25,627 bases of DNA, from positions 1-25,627 of IMG/VR virus record IMGVR_UViG_3300032278_000105. The stretch is one strand, 5' to 3'. This stretch comes from a virus. This document shows, one piece after another, positions 87 through 23,419 of this stretch; the stretch's first letter is position 1, and every line of letters starts with the position of its first letter. The position numbers and the translations under genes were made by a program. The notes beneath the pieces are model-generated. The model was not told the origin of the DNA, did not search any database, and saw only the letters and a program-made list of their open reading frames with translations.

Positions 87-123
87 AGTGCCTCACCTCC
101 TTTCTAATTTCTAAATTATATTA

Positions 124-132
124 ATTGTATCA
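124..132 (-). promoter_or_regulatory. Possible extended -10 promoter of the leftmost minus-strand gene
   Basis: On the minus strand the bases read TGATACAAT, a TGn extension followed by a five-of-six match to TATAAT. Transcription would start about 30 bases before the ATG at 86, leaving room for its ribosome binding site. No good -35 box sits at 16-18 bases, although TTGGCA lies closer in. The surroundings are AT-rich, so a chance match is possible. Confidence 0.3.
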
Positions 133-295
133 TAAAGAAGATGCCAAGTATACTTATTTGTTCAATAGTATTGGCCTCGATCAATATCTTTTGTTCCACC
201 AATATATTACCAATAATTACATAAGACGTTATCACATAATACTTTGGCAGTCCGTTTAGAAAAAGATATTGGGCTATTGGCTATGTACGCTCCAA

Positions 296-382: not shown

Positions 383-540
383 CGTACACTTGTTGGGCCG
401 CCAGCCCTGGCCCAAGGCCGTGTAGGCTCCAGCACCTCGGAGTGTATGTCCAGGCGCTTGGCTGGCTCGGGCGGGGATAGAATGAGAATAGACTCCGGGC
501 CTCCGAACTTAATCGGCTGCAGTCTACAGACTACCGTGTT
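383..540. ncRNA. GC-rich hairpin-rich segment, candidate structured RNA
   Basis: This block is visibly much richer in G and C than the AT-rich genome around it and has no supported coding frame. It contains several possible helices: TTGGGCC (393-399) with GGCCCAA (409-415); GCCAGCC (400-406) with GGCTGGC (460-466); an 8-bp pairing of CTCGGAGT with ACTCCGGG, one pair being a G-T wobble; CCGA/TCGG; and AGTCT/AGACT. Some of these exclude each other. I found no tRNA T-arm and no recognisable RNase P, 4.5S, tmRNA or group I intron core. The transcribed strand is unknown. A replication origin or a packaging-related site would also fit. Confidence 0.3.
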
Positions 541-559
541 ACTCGATCAGGTACTAGAA

Positions 560-589
560 GACCTAGGACTCTTCCCTGAGTCCTAGGTC
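560..589 (-). terminator. Perfect 12-bp hairpin after the minus-strand operon
   Basis: The arms GACCTAGGACTC (560-571) and GAGTCCTAGGTC (578-589) pair perfectly around a 6-base loop. The hairpin begins nine bases past the stop codon of the last gene of the minus-strand operon. No U-tract follows in either direction, so it may be an RNA-processing or mRNA-protecting hairpin instead of a classic intrinsic terminator. Confidence 0.55.
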
Positions 590-597
590 CAAACTAC

Positions 598-1209
598 CTA
601 CCGAGCGTCAAACAGCTCAGTATCCACATCAGCTTTCGCTCTCTGATCTGGATTTGCATAGTAGTTCATGATATCTACTATACGAGCATGTTTCACTGCA
701 CGATCACCAGACTTGTACTTCGTTCTACCGAAAGTCATGGCGTAATCATTATCGTCGTCTAATAGACGGTCGATAATCGGAGCTGAGTCATGCAGCTCTC
801 TATCAGGATACTCTTCAGTCTCCTGACGTACTGACTGCATGATCATCTGCATCTGAGGAGGAGCAGACGATTCCTTAATCTGCTTCTTACTCATAACACA
901 ACTCCACTTCTTGGTGCACACCTTCGCACCACTCTTCTTCGGTTTCAGAAGAGCTTCGTACTCAGCCTTGGTCAGAGTGACCGTAGCTGATGCTGCAGCG
1001 TTACTTTTCACAGTAACCTCCTTGTTGGAGTTATCCTTGGCAGTATTGCCAAGAACTTTGGATAACGAAGATTTTACACTTTTCATTTTACTTCTCCTTG
1101 TTAAAGTTATTGTTAAGTTATATCCAACAAGTATTGTCCAGGCCTCACCCCCTTTCCAGGCTTTCCAACCAGTGGGCGCTCTTCTAAACGTCCATACTAA
1201 GGTTTGCAT
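598..1209 (-). CDS. Early protein of unknown function with two possible in-frame starts (203 or 162 aa)
   Basis: The reading frame is open from an ATG at 1209 and again contains an ATG at 1086 (residue 42). Both starts are preceded by almost the same ribosome binding site, AACAAGGAG, at good spacing. The short form starts MKSVKSSLSKVLG and is mostly hydrophilic: an Asn/Ala/Thr-rich part, a Lys-rich part with two Cys (about residues 57 and 63 of the short form), then an acidic DDDNDYAMTF region. The 41-residue extension of the long form is unusual, with four Trp. I do not recognise a family. It is the last gene before the 12-bp hairpin. The 162-aa form is the safer annotation; the long form is given because its start signal is equally good. 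Confidence 0.7.
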   Translation of the reverse strand: MQTLVWTFRRAPTGWKAWKGGEAWTILVGYNLTITLTRRSKMKSVKSSLSKVLGNTAKDNSNKEVTVKSNAAASATVTLTKAEYEALLKPKKSGAKVCTKKWSCVMSKKQIKESSAPPQMQMIMQSVRQETEEYPDRELHDSAPIIDRLLDDDNDYAMTFGRTKYKSGDRAVKHARIVDIMNYYANPDQRAKADVDTELFDAR

Positions 1210-2252: not shown

Positions 2253-2313
2253 CTGTTTTAAAGGGCCCGGGGGGTAAATATTCGATCGACAAAAAACCCT
2301 TTCCCGACCCAGT

Positions 2314-2326
2314 CCCCGGATCGGGG
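2314..2326. repeat. GC-rich inverted repeat in the divergent control region
   Basis: CCCCG (2314-2318) and CGGGG (2322-2326) flank three bases. The nearby 2262-2275 stretch (GGGCCCGGGGGG) is also GC-rich, and A6 lies at 2291-2296. The region separates leftward early genes from rightward late genes. No clean terminator can be drawn on either strand, so its role is open. Confidence 0.45.
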
Positions 2327-2361
2327 GTAAAAATCCAAAATATCTGATTAACAAAAAAAGG

Positions 2362-21452: not shown

Positions 21453-23419
21453 CAGTCTCCACAACCGCTTCAGTTAAACAGTATACAGGAAATACTTCTA
21501 CTACTATATTTTCGTTTCCGTATAAAGTGTTTAACAGTACCGATTTTATTGTAACTATTCTTAACAGTTCAACTCTTGCAGTTACTACCCAAGTTAACGG
21601 CGGTTCTGGTACCTATGACTATTCGGTAACCGTTGCCGCTGATAAAAATTCAGCTAATATTACATTTAATAACGCTCCTTTATCTGCTCATAAGATAACG
21701 ATTGAGCGTAAGATGAGTTTAATCCAATCCACGGATTATACTCCTAATGATCCTTTTCCTGCTGAAACTCACGAACAAGCCCTTGACGAACGAACCTTGA
21801 TGGTTCAGCAAGTACAGAATTCCTACGAACTTAATACATTCAGATTCGATAAAAACGTAACAGATGCTGGTGTAGTTGCGATTAATAAAACAGTCGCAGA
21901 ACGTGGAGACAAGTTCCTTGCATTTGATACAGCTGGCGATTTAACAGCAACTCAAGAGATAGGAACTCTTAGAGGAAATTGGGCTGCATCAACTGCTTAT
22001 GCTGTACGAGATCTTGTTAAAGATTCTTCTAATAGTAATTTTTATATTTGTATTGTAGCTCATACTTCATCTGGATCAACACCAGTTTCAAGTAATACTG
22101 ACGTTGCTAAATGGACATTAATCATTGACGCCGCAGCAGCGGCAACCTCAGCTACTGCGGCAGCGGCAAGTGCTACTACGGCCACAGCGCAAGCAGTAAT
22201 AGCAACAGCAAAAGCTGTTTTAACTGCAAGCGATGCAACCGATACAGCAGCAGACTTAGTTGAAACAGCAGCAGATGTTGTTTTAGCGGAAGCTGCAAAA
22301 ACTGCAGCAGAAACTGCTTACGATAATTTCGATGATCGCTGGCTTGGGAGCAAGTCATCCGATCCGAGTGTTGATAATGATGGGGCAACTTTGCTTGACG
22401 GAGCAGCCTATTTCAACACCAGTAATAATGTATTAATGGTCTACGATCTTGGAGGAACAACTTGGAATCGTACTACTCCTACAAGTGGGGATCAAGCTAA
22501 AATTAATACGTTGTCTGCTGCTGCTGTAATAACTGATATGTCAATACTAGCAACTGCTGACATTGTAGAGGATATGTCAATCTTAGGTACTGCGGATGTG
22601 GTAACTGACATGTCGATATTGGCTACTTCTGACATAGTTACAGATATGTCTATATTGGCTACACCAGATATAGTCACCGATATGTCCATATTAGCCACAT
22701 CAGATATAGTTACCGACATGTCAATCTTAGCTACTTCGGACATAGTAACTGATATGTCTATATTGGGAACTGCTGCCGTAGTAGAAGACATGTCTATATT
22801 AGCTACGCCAGATATAGTAACTGATATGTCTATCCTAGGCACGGCAGCTATTGTAGAGGATATGTCTATTTTAGGTACAGCAGATGTTGTAGAAGATATG
22901 TCGATATTAGCTACGCCAGCTATCGTTGAAGATTTATCTATTTTAGGTACAGCAGCTATTGTTGAAGATTTGTCAATATTAGGAACTGCTGCGATTGTAG
23001 AAGATTTGGAAACCTGTGCAGATAATCTTGCAGGAATAAGTAATTTTGCAGCTAGATATAGAGTCGATAGCTCAGACCCAACAGGAAGTCTGGATGAAGG
23101 CGATCTCGCATATAACTCTACAGCAAATGTACTAAAATATTATAACGGAAGTGCTTGGGTAACTATTGTAGCTGGTAGTCTTACAGATATAGTTCAAGAT
23201 GGCTCTCCTCAATTAGGAGGTAATTTAGATACTCAGACCTATACCTTGAGCAACGCTGCGTTAGCTCAAGGTGGTGTATTTAGCAACCCAAATACGGTTA
23301 CTGGTAATACAACAGTTACAACGGCAGCATTAAAGAATATGTTTATGATGGGGCAGATTTCTGTCAACGATACTTATACATGGACAATCGCTGGTGACGG
23401 CGTACTTTCTATTATTTAA
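21449..23419 (+). CDS. Tail fibre protein with 12-residue repeats (656 aa)
   Basis: The N-terminal about 170 residues (MTVSTTASVKQYTGNTSTTIF ... FSFPYKVFNSTDFIVTI ... ERKMSLIQSTDYTPNDPFPAETHEQALDE, all in short pieces) are the T7 gp17-like tail-binding domain. Next come a GNWAASTAYAVRDLV...HTSSG module (177-225) resembling a small carbohydrate-binding module, an Ala/Thr-rich helix (227-290), a DRWLGSKSSDPSVDNDG...YFNTSNNVLMVYD module (296-333), and 13 tandem 12-residue units of the type IVTDMSILATSD (360-515). A second SSDPTGSLDEGDLAYNST module and a DIVQDGSPQLGGNLD motif end the chain. It overlaps the previous gene as ATGA. Confidence 0.9.
   Translation: MTVSTTASVKQYTGNTSTTIFSFPYKVFNSTDFIVTILNSSTLAVTTQVNGGSGTYDYSVTVAADKNSANITFNNAPLSAHKITIERKMSLIQSTDYTPNDPFPAETHEQALDERTLMVQQVQNSYELNTFRFDKNVTDAGVVAINKTVAERGDKFLAFDTAGDLTATQEIGTLRGNWAASTAYAVRDLVKDSSNSNFYICIVAHTSSGSTPVSSNTDVAKWTLIIDAAAAATSATAAAASATTATAQAVIATAKAVLTASDATDTAADLVETAADVVLAEAAKTAAETAYDNFDDRWLGSKSSDPSVDNDGATLLDGAAYFNTSNNVLMVYDLGGTTWNRTTPTSGDQAKINTLSAAAVITDMSILATADIVEDMSILGTADVVTDMSILATSDIVTDMSILATPDIVTDMSILATSDIVTDMSILATSDIVTDMSILGTAAVVEDMSILATPDIVTDMSILGTAAIVEDMSILGTADVVEDMSILATPAIVEDLSILGTAAIVEDLSILGTAAIVEDLETCADNLAGISNFAARYRVDSSDPTGSLDEGDLAYNSTANVLKYYNGSAWVTIVAGSLTDIVQDGSPQLGGNLDTQTYTLSNAALAQGGVFSNPNTVTGNTTVTTAALKNMFMMGQISVNDTYTWTIAGDGVLSII
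22526..22993 (+). repeat. Thirteen 36-bp coding repeats in the tail fibre
   Basis: Thirteen units of 12 codons, consensus (I/V)V(T/E)DMSIL(A/G)T(S/A/P)(D/A), follow each other without gaps; a fourteenth, degenerate unit (IVEDLETC) follows. The DNA differs widely between units at third positions while the protein is held. The last two complete units use DLSIL instead of DMSIL, and E replaces T before D progressively toward the C-terminal end. Confidence 0.9.

Follow-up and report, generated by a model that had tools for sequence, protein, structure and literature searches.

A conserved composite hairpin beside a GC-rich noncoding block at the proposed end of a leftward transcription unit in an HTVC010P-like phage

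The window analysed here, all 25,627 nt of IMG/VR record IMGVR_UViG_3300032278_000105 (38% GC), is a 25.6-kb piece of the genome of an HTVC010P-like podovirus and carries terminase, portal, capsid and tail genes. Near its left end, a 512-nt gap (positions 86–597) separates two leftward genes, one ending at 598 and the other starting at 85. From left to right, the gap holds a sigma-70-like leftward promoter, CCAATA/TATTGG repeats, a T-tract, a GC-rich block and, where the right-hand gene ends, a hairpin. The promoter (118–150, minus strand; TTTACT/A-17-TATAAT in relatives) serves the left-hand operon. The gap adjoins replication genes, and in relatives L170 and L172 this operon encodes a family-A DNA polymerase, an archaeo-eukaryotic-type primase and helicases. 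The repeats (160–345) are candidate protein-binding iterons, with six in 270 nt compared with 0.37 expected in shuffles, and 5–9 per relative. The T-tract carries a single-copy TATATAGGG motif; on the minus strand, the single-copy motif TATTAGTATATATGGAAA followed by an A-tract (316–333; a T-tract on the plus strand) was kept in the eight phages compared and is possibly a second leftward promoter or an origin unwinding element.

The comparison set consisted of the window and seven other distinct relatives that share this gap, obtained from a portal scan and DNA patterns, and the region was conserved in all seven. A search for more members using DNA patterns and terminase and flanking-gene scans gained only a near-copy (L204), and a phage database searched by DNA and by flanking protein gave no match. 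The right-hand gene (598–1209, minus strand), the mRNA of which bears the hairpin at its 3′ end, encodes a 203-residue product with no match in Pfam, PHROG or the PDB and a predicted fold of low confidence. The product is longer than in most relatives (approximately 136–153 residues; 184 as called in G009), and its N-terminal part is unrelated to that in relatives. Further to the right, a ribosome-binding leader that lies between small minus-strand genes occurs as an 89% near-repeat at 1688–1721 and 1914–1948.

The interval 383–589, described in the initial annotation as a GC-rich noncoding block in an AT-rich phage, does include the noncoding stretch with the highest GC content in this phage, and the most GC-rich 120-nt stretch of the window starts at 391 (64% GC). 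Alignments revealed that the block has two conserved edges, at 380–407 (CGTAC..TTGTTGGGCCGCCAGCCC; GCGCGGCGAGCC in relatives) and at 480–520 (GAATGAGAATAGACTCCGGGCCTCC...), enclosing a fast-changing GC-rich core (408–479) with a length of 72–97 nt across the phages. Within the right edge, folds and the alignment point to a probable small minus-strand hairpin, CCGA/UCGG, at 503–516 (HP2); its place is taken in relatives by GCCUC(UUA)/(UA)GGAGGC, which is mostly conserved sequence, so that little covariation is seen. The absence of a coding signal was borne out, as no conserved reading frame spans the block: a frame stays open in two relatives, whereas stops or indels interrupt it in the window and in L011 and L138, and a small protein on the minus strand was rejected on this account.

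We analysed the folding of the region against shuffled controls. The whole interval 383–589 showed a folding excess on both strands (z = −2.7 on the plus strand and −2.4 on the minus strand), which vanished when the hairpin was removed (z = +0.9 and −0.3 respectively), showing that the excess is due to the neighbouring hairpin and not to the GC block. The block itself, compared with dinucleotide shuffles on both strands in eight phages, showed no folding excess (z from −0.9 to +1.6); in the window it is stable in absolute terms, approximately −48 kcal/mol for 132 nt, but no more so than its shuffles. RNAalifold energies of the block equalled those of column-shuffled controls except for one minus-strand set (z = −2.3), in which the signal was gone once the window was left out. 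A helix joining the two edges covaried at chance level (148/500), and none of the Rfam 15 families scored above the gathering threshold, in line with the first impression that no known RNA family could be recognized. Thus the GC block itself, having failed on folding, on RNAalifold with column shuffles and on pair counts, does not by these tests qualify as a structured RNA on either strand, and the ‘at least five helices’ noted in it are no more than its composition yields. The core is very variable and its alignment consequently uncertain, so a divergent structure could be missed.

The structured element lies immediately to the right. The perfect 12-bp hairpin reported next to the block was found (560–571/578–589) and proved to be the tip of a larger composite hairpin in the minus-strand RNA, hereafter named HP1, which runs from 605 to 543 and thus past the end of the interval at 589. 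HP1 is an intercistronic hairpin of 63 nt and 24 bp between two minus-strand genes, built of an outer helix of 11 bp (605–595/553–543), an asymmetric internal loop of 4 nt (594–591) and 5 nt (558–554), an inner helix of 13 bp (590–578/571–559) and an apical loop (577–572); it overlaps the stop codon (600–598) of the right-hand gene. This architecture of an 11-bp helix, a 4/5-nt loop and a 13-bp helix is kept in seven of the eight phages compared, each of which has a single copy, invariably where the right-hand minus-strand gene ends. The internal loop has the form GUNN/NNUAR in all seven.

Folding, covariation and a covariance model all supported HP1. Its folding z was −4.8 in the window and ranged from −4.8 to −7.1 across the seven phages, and no other 80-nt window of the record is more stable. 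Fifteen of the 24 pairs changed on both sides among the seven phages (0/500 shuffles were as good); 96% of the alignment cells were paired, with a covariation of 0.665 compared with 0.279±0.039 in shuffles (0/500). The minus strand was more stable than the plus strand in 7/7, with G-U pairs favouring the minus strand. A leave-one-out covariance model built from the six relatives without the window gave HP1 as its top-scoring match there (29.7 bits, E = 9.5e-5), and a sequence-only model returned no match; both searches were run with the speed filters off, and with the filters on there was no match. Taken together, the suggestion that a structured RNA is present here holds for the adjoining hairpin and fails for the GC block, for which eight phages gave no folding excess, no consensus structure and no covariation above chance. 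Elsewhere in the record, another very stable 80-nt fold (−39.4 kcal/mol) was observed at approximately 22172–22251 on the minus strand, within a long plus-strand gene.

The eighth phage, L011, keeps the GC block and lacks HP1; therefore the block and HP1 can be separate and need not act together. In two distant relatives (G001 and G006), an intrinsic terminator consisting of a hairpin and a U-run occupies the same slot and there is no GC block, suggesting that the slot ends the upstream transcript. HP1 resembles an intrinsic terminator in being a hairpin in this slot, between the right-hand minus-strand gene and the left promoter region. However, no U-tract follows it in any of the seven phages, and it has an extra outer helix and a conserved internal loop. 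Since the U-tract is absent, HP1 is no plain intrinsic terminator.

HP1 also resembles the R1.1 RNase III signal of phage T7, an intercistronic RNA of 60 nt that has an asymmetric internal loop of 4/5 nt (PMC6121014). Both are intercistronic hairpins of approximately 60 nt, or two helical turns, with two stacked helices and a 4/5-nt internal loop, and their predicted folds share the loop geometry. When R1.1 was scored with the HP1 model, it was the top match, at a non-significant 7.4 bits. HP1 differs from R1.1 in overlapping the upstream gene's stop codon and in its longer inner helix, and its cleavage is putative, suggested by the likeness to R1.1. A search of 11 relatives for a T7-type RNA polymerase (PF00940) found none, a result that leaves the absence unproven because the search had no working positive control. 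The HTVC010P-like phage for which a detailed description exists lacks its own RNA polymerase, and that description identified no terminators (PMC10504331). A T7-like promoter reading of a TATAGGG motif was set aside because PF00940 detected no phage RNA polymerase in the 11 relatives, in a search in which the control likewise gave nothing.

For the GC block, the closest likeness is to Rho-dependent terminators, in which a C-rich, G-poor region lies downstream of a stem-loop (PMC9927376). As in the Escherichia coli galETKM operon (PMC9927376), a stem-loop after the last gene is followed by a C-rich, G-poor stretch: the C/G ratio of the core on the minus (sense) strand was 1.4 in the window and 1.5–2.4 in the relatives, giving 1.4–2.4 across the eight phages. 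In the record, the C-over-G excess of the block in the minus sense tops that of every other minus-sense window, and the block is the highest C-over-G stretch of the leftward region in 7/8 phages and within the top 0.2% in the eighth. The excess in the window is nevertheless modest (28 C and 20 G), reached by 11% of record windows when either strand is counted. Unlike the galETKM terminator, the block has a high GC content and some predicted structure, and a role for Rho is proposed here by analogy. Rho sites are expected to have little secondary structure, and the block, although no more stable than its shuffles, is stable in absolute terms. The core may be regarded as a candidate Rho-binding stretch.

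On this basis we propose that one leftward transcription unit ends in this region and the next begins there, making it an RNA 3′-end or termination region that insulates the replication operon; we put the probability of this reading at approximately 0.5. The leftward transcripts of the small genes (598–1694) would end in HP1, which would most likely be cut by host RNase III or would block 3′–5′ exonucleases, and such processing would fix the mRNA 3′ end. The GC block behind HP1 would give rise to a C-rich, G-poor leftward RNA, most likely a stretch for Rho-type termination, and termination there would insulate the replication operon, whose own promoter lies further left. We infer each of these steps, and any joint action of HP1 and the block, from structure, composition and likeness to known systems. 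A bolder version, which we regard as speculative and quite improbable, makes HP1 and the C-rich block a compound switch, in which ribosomes terminating at the stop codon in the outer helix would open or close the putative RNase III and Rho sites; if this were so, the expression of the next operon or replication (or an origin at the adjacent iterons) would be tied to translation of the upstream gene.

Other readings of the region were weighed against this one. A role for HP1 as a simple transcription terminator or mRNA stabilizer, without involvement of RNase III or Rho, is in keeping with its place after a stop codon and with the intrinsic terminators of G001 and G006 in the same slot, but we consider it unlikely, given the lack of a U-tract in 7/7 phages and a conserved 4/5-nt loop and outer helix that a simple terminator does not require. 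A somewhat better, although still tentative, alternative is that the whole intergenic region is a replication origin, in which an initiator would bind the CCAATA iterons, the T-tract/TATATA would be the unwinding element and the GC block would form a flanking part. The number of CCAATA/TATTGG motifs in 270 nt (0.4 expected; five to nine per relative), the single-copy T-tract motif and the position directly upstream of the operon that in L170 and L172 encodes DNA polymerase A, primase and helicases are all consistent with an origin. However, no initiator was identified, and G001 and G006 have the same module without a GC block beside it, so the block is not needed for the module. A DNA origin would also leave the strand-specific RNA covariation of HP1 unaccounted for, and GC skew is unable here to tell replication from gene direction. 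The earlier idea of a replication element finds circumstantial support for the surroundings of the block, in the repeats by the replication operon.

Two further readings concern the block alone. It could be a structured noncoding RNA in its own right, probably of the plus strand, in which pairing of the edges closes the fold and the GCCUC/GAGGC hairpin ends it: the conserved edges are able to pair in RNAalifold, G exceeds C and T exceeds A on the plus strand in 8/8 phages, and a hairpin with a U-rich tail comes after the block in several relatives. We find this improbable, since neither strand folds better than its shuffles in the eight phages, alifold energies match column shuffles, edge pairing covaries no better than chance, Rfam gave no match and plus-strand transcription would have no conserved promoter. 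Least probable of all is a packaging (cos/pac) site, although the block is GC-rich and noncoding, has conserved edges, belongs to a tailed phage and lies less than 3 kb from terminase genes. The block is missing in G001 and G006, the relatives share no common contig end here (a lead only), and a better candidate exists in a separate GC-rich conserved element directly ahead of the small terminase gene. This second conserved noncoding element (2258–2345, plus strand; GGGCCCGGGGGG...CCCCGG..GGGGG) has counterparts in the wider group, and in distant relatives related CCAATA-type motifs are found again to the right of this putative packaging site. A promoter-like TTTACA-17-CATAAT (TTAACA-17-TATAAT in relatives) was observed at 2362–2390 on the plus strand ahead of the late genes.

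The region is thus best read as an ordinary but well-supported piece of mRNA-end anatomy, together with a hairpin family missing from Rfam and a pair of conserved block edges that this reading does not cover. It also gives a caution: GC-rich blocks that look rich in hairpins may be a matter of mere composition, with the true signal adjoining them. HTVC010P-like phages are widespread in the sea, and HP1 is an RNA element of this group that is supported by covariation, offering a concrete site for testing how such phages separate their transcription units with host enzymes.
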